Source: Pseudomonas violetae (GTDB lineage Bacteria; Pseudomonadota; Gammaproteobacteria; Pseudomonadales; Pseudomonadaceae). Taken from it: a DNA stretch of 64,000 nt. Where the stretch lies: NCBI RefSeq assembly GCF_023072615.1, contig NZ_JAKNRW010000008.1:62001-126000 (forward strand), read 5' to 3'. Positions 56,030-63,988 of this stretch are shown piece after piece. The position numbers were made by a program, and so were the translations under genes. The notes under the pieces are model-generated. The model had not been told where the DNA came from. It made no database searches and worked only from the letters and a program-made list of their open reading frames with translations. Position 1 is the first letter of the stretch. The number at the start of each line of letters is the position of its first letter.

Positions 56030-57145
56030 TCAACGGTTCTTTTCCCATTGGTCATTGCTCATCGCCAAGCGAAAGCCTAGATGCGACATGGAATTCATAG
56101 GGTCTGCACCCTGCCTGGCACTGGTTCGAAAACTCGTGCAGTAGCTGTCGCTACAAAGAAAAGATCCGCCTCGGATTACACGCTGCGGTGCATTGGCCGT
56201 CACTCCAAGTTCGGGGTCATAGCTGTCAGATGGCCCCACCGGGTTTACCGCCGCGTCACCCGCCGGTTGACGCCTGAGCCCAACTCTAAAGGCATCGGCA
56301 CGATACCAATCGGCGACCCATTGCCAAACATTCCCGGACATATCGTAGAGCCCGTAGGCGTTGGGCGGGTAACTGCCTACCGGCTTGGTGCCAATTTTGA
56401 ATCTGTTGCTAGCTCCGGTCACGGGAAACGGCTGTATCTCATCCCAGGTATTCGCCATCTTTTCCCCTCCGGGCGAGAAGTCATTCCCCCAGGCATAATT
56501 CGCCTGTTCCAGTCCGCCTCTTGCGGCGTACTCCCATTCAGCCTCGGTGAGCAGACGCTTGTGCGCCCATGCGGCATACGCCTGCACGTCTTCACGTGAA
56601 ACCTGAACAACCGGATGGGTTTCCTTGCCCTCGATGGTACTGTCTGGCCCCAGCGGGTGACGCCAGTCAGCCCCCGGCACAAATGCCCACCACTGGCTGA
56701 AATCATTGAGAGGGATGGGTCTGTCTGTGCCGACAAAAACCAGTGCGCCAGGGACCAAGTCGCTGTCATCCGGCTCAGGCGTCCCAGGCGGCAGTTGGTC
56801 TTTCAGATCTTCCCATTTGGGTTTGCGTTCGGCGGTGGTGACGTAATGCGTTTCAGAAATGAAACGGGTGAAATCGGCATTGGTCACGTCGTAGCGGTCG
56901 ATCCAATACCCGTCAAGTCGAACCTTGTGGGCCGGTCCTTCGTTTGGACGGGCCTGCTTATGATCGCTGCCCATCAAAAATTCGCCGGCAGGAAGCCAGA
57001 CCATTTCCAGGGGGCCATTTTCTCCATCACCCAGCGTCAAAGGCATAGGGCCGCGGATCTGCTGATACACCACAAACGCCAGGCAAACCGACACGATCCC
57101 GGCGCAGACCATGACGATACCAAAACGCCGTTTCCTGATAAGCAT
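56030..57145 (-). CDS. formylglycine-generating enzyme family protein, membrane-anchored
   Basis: 371 residues. An N-terminal basic patch and one hydrophobic segment (MLIRKRRFGIVMVCAGIVSV; about 8-27) indicate a signal anchor. The FGE-sulfatase domain follows (MVWLPAGEFLMGSDHKQARP; PVVQVSREDVQAYAAWAHKR then LLTEAEWEYAARGG; DMSGNVWQWVADWY; RVIRGGSFLCSDSYCTSFRT). Cys331 and Cys336 in FLCSDSYC correspond to the copper-binding catalytic pair of aerobic FGE, which converts a sulfatase Cys to formylglycine. A type I sulfatase gene is divergent from it. I start at the ATG at 57143-57145; an upstream ATG at 57232 is possible. Confidence 0.9.
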   Translation of the reverse strand: MLIRKRRFGIVMVCAGIVSVCLAFVVYQQIRGPMPLTLGDGENGPLEMVWLPAGEFLMGSDHKQARPNEGPAHKVRLDGYWIDRYDVTNADFTRFISETHYVTTAERKPKWEDLKDQLPPGTPEPDDSDLVPGALVFVGTDRPIPLNDFSQWWAFVPGADWRHPLGPDSTIEGKETHPVVQVSREDVQAYAAWAHKRLLTEAEWEYAARGGLEQANYAWGNDFSPGGEKMANTWDEIQPFPVTGASNRFKIGTKPVGSYPPNAYGLYDMSGNVWQWVADWYRADAFRVGLRRQPAGDAAVNPVGPSDSYDPELGVTANAPQRVIRGGSFLCSDSYCTSFRTSARQGADPMNSMSHLGFRLAMSNDQWEKNR

Positions 57146-57326
57146 TTGCGCGCCTCTTGAGTTCAGTCTGTGGCCATTGCCGAACCTGCTCGGTATCAAG
57201 ATCAGGTATAGACACCACTCCTCCAAAGTCAACGACCACTCAGGTTAACGTTGAGATGGACTGGCGAGAGAAAAAAACGGTTCTACACTTCGAGCTTGGG
57301 GTTTCGGGGGCTTACAGGAGCTGGCC

Positions 57327-59813
57327 ATGGCCACCGCACACTGGAATAAACCTTTATGGCTGCGCAAGCGCATCAATTCAGGACTGGCAGTCGCCCTGCT
57401 GACCTGCGCTTGCGCCAATGCAGCGACACAGGAAGTCAACGGCACGCCCGGTTCGCCCAGCGCGACCACGACCATCGATGGGAGATACCTCCCTAATCCT
57501 CCAGCAGCATTCGGCGGCGTCATCAACCTCGACGCCACGAACTCGACGCCCTACTGGCCCCCAACTGTCGTACCTCCCAAAGACGCACCGAATGTCTTGT
57601 TGATCATCACTGACGACGTCGGCTTCGGTGCGCCCAGTACGTTCGGCGGCCTCATCCCGACGCCGAGCATGGATCGCGTCGCCGCAGCCGGATTGCGCTT
57701 CACGCAATTCAATTCGACGGCACTGTGCTCGCCGACGCGTGCCGCCTTGATTACCGGGCGCAATCACCACTCTGTCGGTTTCGGCGTCATCACCGAAATT
57801 TCAACGGGCTATCCTGGCTACAACAGCGTCATCACCAAAGATAAGGTGACCATTGGCAAAATCCTCAAGGACAACGGCTATGCAACATCGTGGTTTGGCA
57901 AAAACCACAACACGCCGTCATTCCAGATCAGTCAGGCCGGTCCGTTTGATCAATGGCCCATTGGTATGGGCTTTGACTATTTCTTCGGGTTCATGGGCGG
58001 TGAAACCAATCAGTGGCAACCGGGCAATCTGATGCGCAACACCACGCCAATCCATCCTTACGTCGGAAAACCGGAGTGGAACCTGATCACCGCGATGGCG
58101 GATGACGCCGTTGGCTATGTCAATGAATTGAATGCGCTCGATCCGAAGAAACCGTTCTTTCTTTACTACGCGCCCGGCGGTACCCACGCGCCGCATCACC
58201 CGACGCCCGAATGGATCGACAAATTCAAGGGCAAATTCGACATGGGTTGGAACGCCGCGCGCGACCAGATCTTCGCCAATCAAAAGCGCCTGGGCGTCAT
58301 TCCCCAGGAAGCCAAGCTCACGCCGTGGCCGGATTCACTGAAGAAATGGGACGAACTGTCGGCGGAGGAGAAAAAACTGTATGCCCACCAGATGGAAGTC
58401 TATGCAGCCTATCTGGCGTACACCGATCATGAAATCGGTCGGGTGATCCAGGCGATTGATGACATGGGCAAGCTCGACAACACGCTGGTGATCTATATCA
58501 GTGGTGACAACGGCAGTAGCGCAGAAGGCACCCCCAACGGCACACCAAACGAAATGACCACTTTCAACGGAATCGACGTGCCAGTCGCCGATCAGATGAA
58601 GTATCTGGACGCTTGGGGCTCGGACCAGACCTATCCGCATATGGCCGTGGGCTGGACCTGGGCCATGGATACGCCCTTCAAGTGGACCAAGCAAATTGCA
58701 TCACATTTTGGCGGTACCCGTCAGGGCATAGCCATCTCCTGGCCGAACCGAATCAAGGATGCCGGCGGCATCCGTAATCAGTTTCACCACGTCATCGACA
58801 TCGAGCCGACGATCCTCGAAGCCACCAGCATTGATGCGCCGCTCCAGGTAGACGGCATTGCGCAAAAACCCATCGAAGGCACGAGCATGGCTTACCTCTT
58901 CGATAAGCAGAATGCCGAAAAGCCTTCTACACGCACCACGCAGTATTTCGAGATGTTTGGTATGCGCGCGCTTTACCACGAGGGCTGGATGGCATCGACA
59001 ACGCCTTACCGCGCACCATGGGACATCACCGTCCAGCCACCCAAGGACATCGTCAATGGCGTGAAATGGGAGCTGTACGACATTACCAAGGACTGGACGC
59101 AGAATGACGATGTCGCCGCTGCCAACCCTGCAAAACTCAAGCAGCTACAGGATCTGTTCTGGGTGGAAGCGAACAAATATCAGGTATTGCCGCTCGACGC
59201 CTCCGGCTTTACACGCGTCGTTACACAGAGGCCGAGCATCGTCGCCGGGCGCACAGAGTTCAATTACCTTTCACCCGTGAGTGGCATTCTTCCAGGCAAC
59301 GAGCCCAACGTGTTGAACAAGTCTTACGTCATTACGGCTGACATCACTGTTCCGGAAAATGGTGTCGACGGAGTACTGGTGACCGACGGCGGCCGCTTTG
59401 GCGGTTATGCGCTCTACCTCCTGAAAGGTAAGCCAATTTTCAACTACAACCTTGAAGGTGTTGCGCGATTCCGTTGGGAAGGGGGCGAGGCGCTTACGCC
59501 CGGCAAGCACAGTATCAGCTTTGATTTCAAATACGCTGGGCCGGGATTCGGTAAAGGTGGCACCGGCGTGCTGTCGGTGGATGGCAAGCAACTGGCGAGC
59601 CATGAGATTCCCCACAGCGTTCCATTCGTCTTCGGTGTGGATGAAAGTTTCGATGTCGGCTCCGATACCGGCACTCCTGTCGATGACAAGGATTACCAGG
59701 TGCCGTTTGCATTCACCGGTTCATTGCACAAACTTACCGTCAAGCTCGAACCAACGCAGTTGAATGTCGCAAGCAAGGAAGAAGCTCAGGACAAGGTCGG
59801 CAAAAAAGACTAA
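57327..59813 (+). CDS. type I (formylglycine) sulfatase, exported
   Basis: 828 residues. A Sec signal peptide without twin arginines (WLRKRINSGLAVALLTCACA, cleavage near NAA) precedes the sulfatase domain: NVLLIITDDVGFGAPSTFGG (metal Asp pair), NSTALCSPTRAALITGR with the C-S-P-T-R motif (Cys134 becomes formylglycine), WFGKNHNTP, GGTHAPHHPTPEWID and YISGDNGSSAEG. The last 180 residues (LNKSYVITADITVPENGVDG on) form a separate beta-sandwich. It hydrolyses sulfate esters, probably aryl or alkyl, in the periplasm. It is divergent from the membrane-anchored FGE that should activate it. Confidence 0.92.
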   Translation: MATAHWNKPLWLRKRINSGLAVALLTCACANAATQEVNGTPGSPSATTTIDGRYLPNPPAAFGGVINLDATNSTPYWPPTVVPPKDAPNVLLIITDDVGFGAPSTFGGLIPTPSMDRVAAAGLRFTQFNSTALCSPTRAALITGRNHHSVGFGVITEISTGYPGYNSVITKDKVTIGKILKDNGYATSWFGKNHNTPSFQISQAGPFDQWPIGMGFDYFFGFMGGETNQWQPGNLMRNTTPIHPYVGKPEWNLITAMADDAVGYVNELNALDPKKPFFLYYAPGGTHAPHHPTPEWIDKFKGKFDMGWNAARDQIFANQKRLGVIPQEAKLTPWPDSLKKWDELSAEEKKLYAHQMEVYAAYLAYTDHEIGRVIQAIDDMGKLDNTLVIYISGDNGSSAEGTPNGTPNEMTTFNGIDVPVADQMKYLDAWGSDQTYPHMAVGWTWAMDTPFKWTKQIASHFGGTRQGIAISWPNRIKDAGGIRNQFHHVIDIEPTILEATSIDAPLQVDGIAQKPIEGTSMAYLFDKQNAEKPSTRTTQYFEMFGMRALYHEGWMASTTPYRAPWDITVQPPKDIVNGVKWELYDITKDWTQNDDVAAANPAKLKQLQDLFWVEANKYQVLPLDASGFTRVVTQRPSIVAGRTEFNYLSPVSGILPGNEPNVLNKSYVITADITVPENGVDGVLVTDGGRFGGYALYLLKGKPIFNYNLEGVARFRWEGGEALTPGKHSISFDFKYAGPGFGKGGTGVLSVDGKQLASHEIPHSVPFVFGVDESFDVGSDTGTPVDDKDYQVPFAFTGSLHKLTVKLEPTQLNVASKEEAQDKVGKKD

Positions 59814-59932: not shown

Positions 59933-60610
59933 ATGAACCTGTCACAAAAATTCTTCATCGGCGCTGCAATGGCGAGTCTGCTGCTCGGCGGATGCACCTC
60001 GAAGGTGACCGACAAAGCGCAATACTCAGGCTACCTCTCCAACTACAACAACTTGCAAGAAGTGACCACCACCACAGGTGAGAAGGCGATGCGCTGGGTG
60101 AGTCCCTCATGGAACCCAAATGCCTATGACACCGTAATGTTCAACGGGTTGGAATTCTATCCGGTACCGAAACCCAATGAGCGGGTGAACCAGCAGACAC
60201 TCGACGATATTCATAACTACATGACCACAAACGCTAAAGGCGTGTTAGGTCAGAAATACCGGCTGGTGTCTCACCCGGCCGCAGCACCAGCCGGGTCGAA
60301 ACCCCTGATTCTGCGTGCAGCTATCACCGGGGTAAATGCCTCAAACGAAGGCATGAAATGGTATGAAGTAGTGCCGGTCGCGGCTGTCGTCGGTGCAGCG
60401 CAAGCGGCCACTGGACATCGGGACCAAGACACTAACCTTTTCATCGAAGCCGAATTCATCGACGCTAAAACCAATCAGACTGTGGCCAAAGTGGTGCGTA
60501 AGGTGTCCGGCACCCAACTTTCAAACGCTAGCCAACAAATTACCACTCAGGACTTCAAGTCTGCGATTGACAAATTGAACGCCGATCTAGGGGCCTTCAT
60601 CCGTAGATAA
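59933..60610 (+). CDS. DUF3313 lipoprotein
   Basis: 225 residues with a lipoprotein signal peptide (MNLSQKFFIGAAMASLLLGG-C, lipobox LLGGC). YSGYLSNYNNLQEVTTTTGE and MRWVSPSWNPNAYDTVMFNG then LEFYPVPKPNERVNQQTLDD are typical of DUF3313, a family of membrane-attached lipoproteins without known function. The Ser at +2 excludes the inner-membrane retention Asp, so outer-membrane sorting is expected. It follows the sulfatase in the same direction but is separated by a hairpin; an intrinsic terminator follows it. Confidence 0.85.
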   Translation: MNLSQKFFIGAAMASLLLGGCTSKVTDKAQYSGYLSNYNNLQEVTTTTGEKAMRWVSPSWNPNAYDTVMFNGLEFYPVPKPNERVNQQTLDDIHNYMTTNAKGVLGQKYRLVSHPAAAPAGSKPLILRAAITGVNASNEGMKWYEVVPVAAVVGAAQAATGHRDQDTNLFIEAEFIDAKTNQTVAKVVRKVSGTQLSNASQQITTQDFKSAIDKLNADLGAFIRR

Positions 60611-60758: not shown

Positions 60759-61121
60759 TCAGGTCAAGGCCAGAAGTTCCCGAGTCTTGGCAATCACCAG
60801 ATCAATATTGAACGGCTTTTTCAGCACCGCATCGAACAGGTCCGATCGCTCCAAACCGATATGGGCCTGGGCGCCGCTAATCAGGATGATCGGCAAATGA
60901 CTGACAAGAGGCAACGCTCGAACTGCCTTGGCGAATTCGAGGCCATCCATCACCGGCATCATGAAGTCCGTGATGATCAGCGACGGACGTTCGCGTTCCA
61001 GCACTTCGAGTCCTTTTTGGCCGTTGCTGGCCTTTACGACCATGAACCCCTCATCCTCCAGCGCGTAGCCAAGAATATCAGCGATCAAGTACTCGTCGTC
61101 GACGACGAGGATGGTGGTCAT
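60759..61121 (-). CDS. single-domain response regulator
   Basis: 120 residues, only a receiver domain: TTILVVDDEYLIADILGYAL (acidic pair Asp8-Asp9), the phospho-acceptor Asp52 in LIITDFMMPVMDGLEF, ILISGAQ (switch Ser) and LKKPFNIDLV (conserved Lys and Pro). There is no output domain, so it must act by protein contact. It lies 24 bp downstream of the KaiC-like gene and is the last gene of the kinase-KaiC-receiver operon. Confidence 0.93.
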   Translation of the reverse strand: MTTILVVDDEYLIADILGYALEDEGFMVVKASNGQKGLEVLERERPSLIITDFMMPVMDGLEFAKAVRALPLVSHLPIILISGAQAHIGLERSDLFDAVLKKPFNIDLVIAKTRELLALT

Positions 61122-61145
61122 GTCAATTCAACCCAACTCACAGAT

Positions 61146-62618
61146 TTAGGAGATTGAACCGGGCAGCGCTGAATCATTAGGGACTGCCGTTGCATGTCGT
61201 GAGGCCTTTTTCAGTTCAACGCCGTGTTCATGGATAACCACTTCAAGGAGCGAGGGGTCATAGAAGCTGTCTCGTACCTTGAGAATAGAAAGCAGTCGTC
61301 GGAGTTCTGACTGAGTCTCGAAGAAACGCATCAGCATCAGGTTATCGACGATACTCGAAAGGTCCGGTGTCGGCGTACTGACCTCGGAACCGAACAGGTC
61401 ACGCATCTCCCACGAGCCAAACACCGTCACGCCCCGGGCGCGCAGTTCGCTCATCAGGGCACTGTAGAAATCGGTGATCCGTGCCGGCGTGGTCGACACC
61501 CGTGCCATACCACTGAGGCTGTCGATGAACAGGCGCTTGATGCCTTTCTGCTCAACGATGCTCAACAGGTGCGCGCCAAGGCCGTCGAGCAAACCCTCCG
61601 TGGTGGGCTGCCAGGCAATGCTCAGCGCACCACTTTCTTCCATGCCCTTGATATCGATCCCCAACGACTGGCCTTTGAGCCGTAACCGTTGCGGACTTTC
61701 GTAAAAACCAAAATGCAGGCCAGGTGCGTCCACCGTTGATTCGGCAAGAAACTTAAGCCCCAAGGTGGTTTTACCGACCCCGGATGGACCCATCACCAAG
61801 GTCATGGAGGAACTGTGCAAGCCGCCGTCGATCAGGCCATCGAGTGCGCCAATGCCGCTGGGGATGCGCGTCAGATCTGCGCTGTCGGGCTGGGACGGAT
61901 GGCTGTAGAGACTTTCCAGGCGCGGATAGACCACCAGACCGTCGTCGGTGATTTCGCACTCGTGCAGGCCGGTGAGCGCGCCGCTACCCCGGGTCTTGCG
62001 CATCTGGATGCGTCGAACTGAACGGGTGCCGAACAGTTCTTCACCTATTTCAATGACGCCATCGACCATGGTGTGCTCGGGGCTGCCGTCATCCAGCCGG
62101 GAACTGGTGAGAAACAGAACGGTGCAGCCGGCAAAGGCGGCATGGCCCTGCAGCTCGGAGATGAATTTTTTCGTGTCGATTGGCGAGTCGGCCTTGGAGC
62201 GCGCATTGAGCAAGCCGTCGACCACCAGCACCGTGGCCTTCTGCCGGCTGATTTCACGGCGCAGCAGTTTGACGACTTCGTCCAGGCCTTCGTTTTCCAG
62301 GGTATCGAAGGCGCTGACAAACTGAATCTCGGCGCCGACCCGGGCCGGATCGAAGAAGCTCAGGGTCGAGAGAAACTGAAACAGGCGATCATGGGATTCG
62401 GCCAGCAGCGTGGCGACCAAGACCCGACCGCCGTTGCGCGCATGATGGAACCCCAACTGGTTGGCGAGAATTGTTTTACCAGAGCCAGGACGTCCTTGGA
62501 TGATGTAGGACGAACCCGCGACCAGCCCACCCTTGAGCAGAGCATCAAGCCCCTCGATTCCGCTTTGAAGGCGTTTTAGCTTTTCCACACTGCAACCCTG
62601 ATCTGAACAACAGGCCAT
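61146..62618 (-). CDS. KaiC-like double RecA-fold ATPase
   Basis: 490 residues with two KaiC domains. Domain 1 has LQSGIEGLDALLKGGLVAGS, Walker A GRPGSGKT (42-49) and VLVVDGL; domain 2 has IPSGIGALDGLIDGGLHSSS, Walker A GPSGVGKT (277-284) and RLFIDSLSGMARV. In each domain one catalytic Glu follows in (A/Y)-E-S (LLAESHDRLF; GFYESPQRLR). KaiC relatives outside cyanobacteria are hexameric ATPases/kinases tied to stress or two-component signalling; kaiA and kaiB are absent here. An opening with three Cys (MACCSDQGCS) is unusual. It sits between a histidine kinase gene and a receiver gene. Confidence 0.9.
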   Translation of the reverse strand: MACCSDQGCSVEKLKRLQSGIEGLDALLKGGLVAGSSYIIQGRPGSGKTILANQLGFHHARNGGRVLVATLLAESHDRLFQFLSTLSFFDPARVGAEIQFVSAFDTLENEGLDEVVKLLRREISRQKATVLVVDGLLNARSKADSPIDTKKFISELQGHAAFAGCTVLFLTSSRLDDGSPEHTMVDGVIEIGEELFGTRSVRRIQMRKTRGSGALTGLHECEITDDGLVVYPRLESLYSHPSQPDSADLTRIPSGIGALDGLIDGGLHSSSMTLVMGPSGVGKTTLGLKFLAESTVDAPGLHFGFYESPQRLRLKGQSLGIDIKGMEESGALSIAWQPTTEGLLDGLGAHLLSIVEQKGIKRLFIDSLSGMARVSTTPARITDFYSALMSELRARGVTVFGSWEMRDLFGSEVSTPTPDLSSIVDNLMLMRFFETQSELRRLLSILKVRDSFYDPSLLEVVIHEHGVELKKASRHATAVPNDSALPGSIS

Positions 62619-62677
62619 CAGGCCGGAGGTCTAAGATGCTAACGCCATTTTCGCATTCGGGCTATCGGGCCGCGCGC

Positions 62678-63988
62678 TTAAGCGCAAGGTAAATACAAGG
62701 TAAAGGCACTGCCTTGGCCCAGGCAACTCTCCACGCGGATTTCGCCACCCGACTGTTTGGCAAATCCGAACACCTGACTCAAACCCAGGCCCGTGCCCTG
62801 ACCAACGCTCTTGGTGGTAAAAAAAGGTTCGAAGATTCGCTCGATGCAGAACGGGGCAATACCCGAACCGTTGTCGCTGACAGAGATGGCGATGAAGTTT
62901 CCGTCAATGGAAGGATCACCCCGGGTAGCCGGAATACCGTCAGCCCGGGTCACGTTGATGATCAGTTTACCGTTGCCGTGCATGGCGTCACTGGCGTTTT
63001 TGACCAGGTTGACGAGCGCCGTTTCGAACTGGCCAGGATCTGCGTGAATCGAACAGATTTCTTCAAGCTCATCGATGACCACGTCGACACCGGGCCCAAC
63101 CTGCAACCTCATGGCCTCGCCGATGGCCATGACACTGGCATTCACGTCCAATGCCGACGGATTGAGCGCTTGGCGGCGCGCAAATGAGAGCAACTGACCG
63201 GTAAGGCTACTGCCTCTTTCGACGGCCTCGGAAATAGCTTCAACCAGGCGCAGACGGCGCTCCTCAGAACTGCCAGGGCGCTTGAGCAGGTCACAGGACG
63301 AACGGATGACGGTCAGCAGGTTGTTGAAGTCATGGGCAAAGCGGCCGGTCAACTGCCCCACTGCCTCCATCTTTTGCGACTGTCGCAGTTGTTCCGTGCG
63401 CACCTGGACCTGGTGTTCTAGCGAAGCGGCAAGTTCGCGCAGATCGTCCCGGGCACGACAGCGCTCGGTTGCCATGCGGGTGCGTTCGGCGACTTCGCGA
63501 ATCAGCGCCAGTTCATCAGCCGTCCAGTCGCGAGCCTCGGAATGGTTCAGGTAGAGCAGTGCTACCGGCCGACCTTTTTCGATGATGGGCATATTAATGA
63601 ACGAATGGGCACTGATAGCCTTGAGCTGTTGCGTACTTTCACGAGTTCGAGGGTCCTCGCCGACATCGCGCACGACGACCGTCTCGCTTTTTTTAAGATC
63701 TTCGATGTAGCTACCGTACTCGCGAAAACTCAAGACCCCGGCCAGGGTCTCGATACCCGGCGCGTTCCAGTCGCGCTCGATAGTGATGGTCTCGGCAACC
63801 GGGTCAATGGTGCCGTAGCCCACCCTGCTGACCTGCAGGGTCCGTCCGAGAATCTCCGCCGCTGCATAGGCCAGCGTCGGCGTGTCATCCAGGTCGCGAA
63901 TTCGCTCGCCGATTTCTATCAAGGCAAGACGGTGGGTTTCGTAAGCCAGGAAGCCAGTGCCGGACCCTGGTAAATAGTTCGTTGGCAT
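62678..63988 (-). CDS. GAF-domain sensor histidine kinase
   Basis: 436 residues, no membrane segment. A GAF domain occupies about 20-175 (AAEILGRTLQVSRVGYGTID; VALLYLNHSEARDWTADELA), then a coiled coil, and the phospho-acceptor helix MEAVGQLTGRFAHDFNNLLT with His219. The ATPase domain has the N box LVNLVKNASDAM, G1 VSDNGSGI, F box ERIFEPFFTTK and G2 GQGTGLGLSQVFGFAKQSGG. It is a cytosolic sensor, probably first gene of an operon with the KaiC-like ATPase and receiver. Only 12 bp remain to the window edge, so its promoter is mostly outside. Confidence 0.93.
   Translation of the reverse strand: MPTNYLPGSGTGFLAYETHRLALIEIGERIRDLDDTPTLAYAAAEILGRTLQVSRVGYGTIDPVAETITIERDWNAPGIETLAGVLSFREYGSYIEDLKKSETVVVRDVGEDPRTRESTQQLKAISAHSFINMPIIEKGRPVALLYLNHSEARDWTADELALIREVAERTRMATERCRARDDLRELAASLEHQVQVRTEQLRQSQKMEAVGQLTGRFAHDFNNLLTVIRSSCDLLKRPGSSEERRLRLVEAISEAVERGSSLTGQLLSFARRQALNPSALDVNASVMAIGEAMRLQVGPGVDVVIDELEEICSIHADPGQFETALVNLVKNASDAMHGNGKLIINVTRADGIPATRGDPSIDGNFIAISVSDNGSGIAPFCIERIFEPFFTTKSVGQGTGLGLSQVFGFAKQSGGEIRVESCLGQGSAFTLYLPCA

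Follow-up and report, generated by a model that had tools for sequence, protein, structure and literature searches.

KaiC-like proteins are widespread beyond cyanobacteria, and for most of them the partners are unclear; a receiver protein is one partner for which genomic support is strong. De Luca et al. (2011) sorted kaiC neighbourhoods, and one of their groups frequently has a receiver gene after kaiC, as for PSEEN2280, which has a Ser-Ser profile (PMC3164672; this and the other papers cited here are drawn on in excerpt). KaiC-like proteins of environmental Pseudomonas have been given roles in osmotic and oxidative stress and in biofilms (Terrettaz et al. 2023, as cited in PMC11832031), and in the kaiC2-kaiR2 system of Methylobacterium (Methylorubrum) extorquens AM1, KaiC2 is phosphorylated on a conserved Ser needed for plant colonisation (PMC8069551). 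Fusions of KaiC to a receiver domain (KaiC-REC) are reported in Methanosarcinaceae (PMC5847659), and the kinase SasA binds KaiC via a KaiB-like domain (PMC5520375). The locus described here lies in a 64,000-nucleotide stretch of Pseudomonas violetae (positions 62,001 to 126,000 of contig NZ_JAKNRW010000008.1, hereafter the window), taken from a genome of 6.45 Mb. Its KaiC-like ATPase and receiver genes are a real, conserved and already described kind of gene pair. They follow a kinase gene between positions 60759 and 63988, where the three genes are transcribed in this order (aa, amino acids):

62678-63988, minus strand, GAF histidine kinase (436 aa counted from the ATG at 63988; GAF, HisKA and HATPase_c in Pfam)
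61146-62618, minus strand, double-domain KaiC-like ATPase (490 aa; two stretches matching KaiC, PF06745, E 7.2e-54)
60759-61121, minus strand, stand-alone receiver (120 aa; Response_reg PF00072, E 1.2e-20, its sole Pfam family)

The initial annotation had described three co-directional, closely spaced genes, a kinase with a GAF domain and a receiver devoid of output domain, and all of this was borne out. The kinase and kaiC are separated by 59 nucleotides (nt), kaiC and the receiver gene by 24 nt. Terminator-like sites between the three genes were not found on the minus strand, in a scan that itself gave fewer sites than shuffled sequences, and a promoter scan of the three-gene stretch returned no sigma-70-like site.

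The KaiC-receiver gene pair

Using the KaiC protein as query against 298 Pseudomonas genomes (E ≤1e-80) we obtained 125 copies in 118 genomes, and the receiver query (E ≤1e-28) gave 132 matches in 119 of the same genomes. The receiver gene lies directly downstream of kaiC and on the same strand for 124 of the 125 copies. The sole copy without an adjacent receiver (genome G140) ends at a contig edge, and all 124 copies that can be judged are paired. The distance from KaiC to the receiver is 19-92 nt with a median of 32, measured between match ends and not between gene ends. Neighbourhoods were read in two sets of loci, a named set consisting of the best 80 matches of the search, in which close relatives consequently dominate, and a diversity set made of the own locus and 40 loci hand-picked for diversity out of the 125 copies; some genomes occur in both (L123 is L038). 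The receiver adjoins kaiC in all 80 loci of the named set. Among the named KaiC matches listed, the closest are those of P. gregormendelii LMG 28632 (97%) and P. mandelii RIT-562 (96%).

Beyond the genus the KaiC family is rare. In a search of the phylum covering 398 genomes, 17 had a match at E ≤1e-45; five of these are Pseudomonas (own genome included), and nine of the 12 others are of the kaiC-receiver type. Two order-level searches with relatives as queries gave matches in 2 of 249 and 3 of 249 genomes, query genomes included. In other genera, the receiver adjoins kaiC in nine of nine loci at 37-61% identity and in three of three further loci (12/12 in total). Finally, the second copy found in G217 reads as a KaiC-REC fusion in a single frame of 602 codons. 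In all, the ATPase and the receiver very probably work together. The three-gene unit of the initial annotation holds for these two genes and not for the kinase, which is not a fixed third member: frequent separation of the genes, set beforehand as the outcome that would speak against the unit, was observed for the kinase and not for the receiver. As judged from gene neighbourhoods, the conserved unit is the KaiC-like ATPase with its receiver, and the kinase is exchangeable.

Two other leads on fusion proteins were discarded. A histidine kinase-KaiC fusion in G103, suggested by an 895-aa frame, proved on translation to have only 483 codons between stops and is not a fusion. A MAFFT alignment that combined the KaiC-REC fusion with the relatives of the two separate proteins misplaced the receiver rows onto the KaiC part.

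Other kaiC systems differ in their neighbours. The own genome encodes two more double-domain KaiC proteins, 30-31% identical to that of the window, one followed by a histidine kinase and the other by a hybrid kinase. Six loci hold KaiC paralogs below 36% identity. In four of them (L006, L007, L104 and L105) the gene after kaiC encodes a kinase or hybrid kinase; in L102 kaiC is followed by a 446-aa frame whose end gave a receiver-like match, and L103 gave no match to the kinase or receiver query. The second kaiC of the own genome with its own histidine kinase (L006, 4201-7255) is located outside the window, about 67 kb from the locus. It is preceded, with a 49-nt overlap, by a 189-aa open frame that has no Pfam match and recurs in several species (63-74% identity in six loci, about 40% in L113 and L114). 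In a few Pseudomonas (L045, L143, L152 and L154) two kaiC systems stand side by side; L152 and L154 have a gene between the two systems, which was scanned in L152 and is PAS-GGDEF.

On the other side of the pair, a gene encoding a DUF3313 protein (PF11769) with a lipoprotein-like start, at window positions 59933-60610, is convergent to the receiver gene. The stretch 56030-59813 holds divergent neighbours which, from their sequence, we take to be a formylglycine-generating-enzyme-like gene and an arylsulfatase-like gene.

Residues and fold of the ATPase and the receiver

Residues were counted over 68 family rows for each protein, these being tblastn matches with identical ones counted once and the six paralogs below 36% identity kept apart. 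In the KaiC-like ATPase, the Walker A lysines K48 and K283, Asp134, Asp366, E74, E307, K208/R210 and K447 are invariant (68/68), and R449 is kept in 67 rows with one gap. The single catalytic Glu per domain read in the initial annotation is therefore confirmed, as E74 and E307. Ahead of E74, residue 73 is Ala in 51 rows and Ser in 17; ahead of E307, residue 306 is Tyr in 64 of the 68. Alignment to solved KaiC places Tyr306 at Glu318, the first Glu of the CII pair, and the catalytic Glu pair of circadian KaiC is lacking from both domains (CI was placed by motif only). In KaiC the two pairs are E77/E78 and E318/E319. S421, which aligns with KaiC S431, is conserved in 67 of the 68 rows, and S422, which aligns with T432, is Ser in 56, Gly in 7 and Ala in 5; by residue identity both places can hold a phosphorylatable residue. 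The Cys-rich start noted in the initial annotation is real in the window protein and is no family trait, as Cys is found at C3 in 21, at C4 in 8 and at C9 in 4 of 68 rows, many of which, as tblastn matches, begin later than the protein start.

An AlphaFold model of the KaiC-like protein (35 sequences) reached a mean predicted local distance difference test score (pLDDT) of 87 and a predicted template modelling score of 0.84, with pLDDT below 50 for residues 1-12 and 477-490. About four rows, L015, L069 and L079 among them, had a stop within the match and were dropped from the structure alignment only. The best solved-structure match of the model is KaiC 3k0c (template modelling score 0.81, E 1.9e-40, 22% identity, over its length), and the protein has two KaiC domains in one chain as well as the KaiC fold. 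Its scores fall short of both cut-offs for circadian KaiC, with 126.3 vs 546.25 bits for TIGR02655 and 186.4 vs 408 bits for NF006799. As stated in the initial annotation, kaiA and kaiB are missing: KaiB gave no match in the own genome, and neither did KaiA, for which this was the only genome searched besides controls. A SasA-type kinase with a KaiB-like domain was not found beside kaiC, where the neighbour has a GAF domain, and KaiB had no match genome-wide. Given the missing KaiA and KaiB and the low scores against circadian models, we think a clock role unlikely. KaiB matches were found in 4 of 298 Pseudomonas genomes (G067, G119, G165 and G228; loci L107-L112), in the form of two neighbouring kaiB-like genes; all four genomes also carry a window-type kaiC, on another contig.

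The receiver has kept D9, E10, D52 and K102 in 68 of 68 rows, and residue 82 is Ser in 65 rows, as in the window protein, and Thr in three. The acid pair, the phosphoacceptor Asp, the Thr/Ser and the Lys of a single-domain response regulator are all there, with no other domain, and we are highly confident that it is phosphorylated by histidine kinases.

The kinase upstream of kaiC

The presence of a kinase was scored as a match to the core of the window kinase at E ≤1e-4, a search that would miss other kinases. Within 2.6 kb upstream of kaiC in the best-80 set we counted by hand 23 loci with such a gene (19 with a PAS kinase, 2 with a GAF kinase, 1 with a second PAS type and 1, L188, with a hybrid). 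In two more, L152 and L154, the sole match is a weak one, to the kinase that belongs to the neighbouring other kaiC, and 55 show no kinase match over this distance, two of them with a shorter flank. The diversity set of 41 loci gave 18 PAS kinases, 2 GAF kinases, 1 kinase of the second PAS type, 2 loci with a kinase only downstream and 17 with none, the last locus (L039) having a remnant-like match of 68 residues and a sister locus that bears the kinase. No kinase was found upstream of kaiC in the nine loci from other genera; 2 of the 3 further loci have a distant kinase core (28% and 26% identical) immediately ahead of kaiC, indicating that a kinase in the upstream slot recurs outside the genus.

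In a kinase tree, which is quick and unrooted with long branches flagged and leaves out matches under about 180 residues, the 33 PAS kinase cores from kaiC loci form one 35-row group together with the cores of L117 and L119, two receiver loci devoid of kaiC (Shimodaira-Hasegawa-like approximate likelihood ratio test 99). The window GAF kinase falls outside this group. The core match of L187, labelled PAS, is 63% identical to the window kinase and is absent from the tree, so that the split between GAF and PAS kinases is perhaps less clean than the tree shows. On the KaiC tree, also quick and with long branches flagged, kinase presence changes at least 7 times. Many lineages have a PAS kinase, most close relatives have none and three of the genomes seen have the GAF kinase. 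With a GAF, PAS, second PAS, hybrid or no kinase upstream, a fixed kinase-KaiC-receiver operon is not what these loci contain.

The three genomes with the GAF kinase beside kaiC are the own genome, P. gregormendelii and P. mandelii RIT-562. In the last two the kinase is preceded by a 704-aa gene, located 25 nt before the open frame of the kinase and about 175 nt before its ATG, whose product in P. gregormendelii was scanned as REC-PAS-GGDEF-EAL. Similarity at the DNA level between the own genome and these sisters starts within the last ~70 bp of that gene, with 20 end residues matched, and the break in similarity lies about 230 bp past the window end. Since the REC-PAS-GGDEF-EAL gene precedes the kinase in the sisters and persists as a remnant here, the kinase may first have served the REC-PAS-GGDEF-EAL protein. 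Elsewhere, near full-length relatives of the kinase occur in 66 of 199 Pseudomonas genomes besides the own one (hand count; 43-49% identity, frames of 608-888 aa), and four more of these genomes gave a match to the kinase core only (E ≤1e-85). One relative was scanned as a PAS_4-GAF-HisKA-HATPase-REC hybrid, and in the six genomes compared (G004, G039, G118, G139, G174 and G178) the relative stands away from kaiC. In P. putida, the GGDEF/EAL response regulator CfcR needs the CHASE3/GAF hybrid kinase CfcA (PMC6849547). Set beside that system by description, the GAF kinase has a REC-GGDEF-EAL gene next to it in the two sister genomes and a 3' remnant of one in the own genome, and the window kinase has neither CHASE3 nor a receiver domain.

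The sister genes, the ~70-bp gene end, the relatives away from kaiC and the precedent of CfcR all speak for an alternative that concerns the kinase alone, namely that it is outside the system, a former partner of a CfcR-like REC-PAS-GGDEF-EAL protein lost here, and sits beside kaiC by chance. It would have come with a response regulator of cyclic di-GMP (c-di-GMP) signalling and may have been left beside the kaiC-receiver pair after the loss of that gene. Against this, PAS kinases fill the same upstream slot in many lineages, which makes the arrangement a recurrent one, and the GAF kinase has been retained here after the other gene was lost. We give this alternative slightly less than an even chance, and it is compatible with a two-gene switch made of the ATPase and the receiver. 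That the GAF kinase is the main kinase of the window receiver is a possibility that we likewise place just short of even.

A c-di-GMP output for the whole family was considered and rejected. Of the best 80 loci, 10 have a GGDEF/EAL gene at a distance of up to about 4 kb, and several of these 10 are sister pairs. Pseudomonas genomes carry some 40 GGDEF/EAL genes each, so about 4 of 80 loci would be expected to have one nearby, and 10 of 80 makes no firm link to c-di-GMP.

A proposed two-gene switch, its rivals and known systems

We propose that the ATPase and the receiver form a two-gene switch with an exchangeable kinase input. A histidine kinase, of the PAS type in many lineages, perhaps the GAF kinase here and other kinases of the cell elsewhere, would phosphorylate Asp52 of the receiver. 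Of the two receiver states, one would then dock on a predicted hexamer of the KaiC-like protein and bias both ATP hydrolysis by the ring and its phosphoserine state at Ser421, often also at Ser422. The receiver would in this way take the place held by KaiA and KaiB in the clock, and the ATPase would serve as output stage, influencing stress and surface-growth functions through protein contacts. Taken as a whole we judge this scheme somewhat likelier than its failure, and for its direction, with the receiver acting on the ATPase and not the reverse, which the initial annotation had also favoured and which is plausible, we are a little more confident. A further step, which we consider rather unlikely and offer as a tentative idea, is that the phosphorylated receiver replaced KaiA and KaiB, that the ring is a detached output domain of a two-component system, and that the Tyr standing for the CII Glu marks a ring set by outside kinases instead of a self-timed one.

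Several observations weigh against the proposed switch. The KaiC-REC fusion is a single copy from a genome that is 86% complete, and an assembly or sequencing error may account for it. With Tyr306 at the Glu318 place, the predicted autophosphorylation is perhaps weak or changed; if the ring does self-phosphorylate, this Tyr argues, from sequence, for a changed manner of doing so. The REC-PAS-GGDEF-EAL protein is the likelier first partner of the GAF kinase. Finally, 8 of the 132 receiver matches stand without this KaiC. In G048 and G261 a GGDEF-kinase and a truncated copy of the other KaiC come before the receiver, which also adjoins a CHASE-PAS-GGDEF-EAL gene, and the G048 receiver is itself split across two frames. 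In G279 and G290 (L117 and L119) KaiC is missing and the receiver comes directly after a PAS kinase; both genomes carry a complete KaiC-receiver pair elsewhere. As the cores of these two PAS kinases group in the clade of kaiC-linked PAS kinases, their position directly before the receiver fits transfer from kinase to receiver. G151 has its receiver beside a KaiC remnant (a match to the KaiC C-terminus), and the receiver loci L120, L121 and L122 show no KaiC match, the receiver of L122 being near a gene that, from its sequence, we take to be phytochrome-like. A receiver without KaiC in eight places indicates that it can be retained without the ATPase, which fits the receiver as a downstream part. 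The asymmetry, with KaiC never found without the receiver where this can be judged and the receiver sometimes found without KaiC, is what would be expected of an ATPase lacking any other regulator, and would agree equally with further targets of the receiver.

The same eight loci bear on the reverse direction, in which the KaiC-like ring would sense ATP/ADP and gate the flow of phosphate from kinase to receiver, the phosphorylated receiver being the output that binds other proteins. Persistence of the receiver without KaiC, in two places right after a PAS kinase, suggests that feeding KaiC may not be its sole role, and in cyanobacteria the state of KaiC reaches RpaA through the kinase SasA (PMC13001216). 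However, the window GAF kinase and the two PAS kinases that were scanned have no KaiB domain, unlike SasA, KaiC and the receiver are retained in the 55 of the best 80 loci with no nearby kinase of this type, and a receiver devoid of output domain is a weak end point; we regard this direction as unlikely. A KaiC-type timer, whether circadian or hourglass, has the KaiC fold, the two-domain layout and the Ser-Ser at the clock phosphosite in its favour, but is highly improbable given the missing KaiA and KaiB in the own genome, scores far below the circadian cut-offs, a lone Glu in each domain with a Tyr standing for Glu318, and a Pseudomonas KaiC study that is cited, in the excerpt, as being without evidence for circadian function (PMC11832031).

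The proposed two-gene switch can be set beside the known systems as follows. The pair occurs in culturable Pseudomonas, its kinase neighbour should not count as core, and the direct test involves one ATPase and one receiver; among the papers listed in searches of open-licence literature we found no study on the biochemistry of such a KaiC-receiver pair. Cyanobacterial KaiABC shares with it the KaiC fold and the double ATPase layout; here, in contrast, there is no KaiA or KaiB in the genome, no SasA-like kinase beside kaiC and one Glu per domain. The KaiC-REC proteins of archaea resemble it in joining a KaiC ATPase to a receiver, as one fused chain there and as two genes here, apart from the one fused Pseudomonas copy (PMC5847659). 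In M. extorquens, kaiC2-kaiR2, likened by description, also has kaiC beside one regulator gene, a conserved phosphoserine and a role in stress and plant colonisation (PMC8069551), and the KaiC-like proteins of Terrettaz et al. 2023 belong to the same genus and protein superfamily as the window KaiC (per PMC11832031). The pair itself belongs with the third kaiC context of de Luca et al., in which kaiC without kaiB is followed by a single-domain receiver, with Ser-Ser as in PSEEN2280 (PMC3164672). That context is described, in the excerpt, as heterogeneous, whereas the present set is one KaiC clade with a receiver at all 124 judgeable copies and a variable kinase. To this described arrangement our analysis adds a count of linked copies, the exclusion of the kinase from the conserved unit, what is left of a GGDEF-EAL gene, the Tyr that stands for Glu318 and a single natural KaiC-REC fusion.

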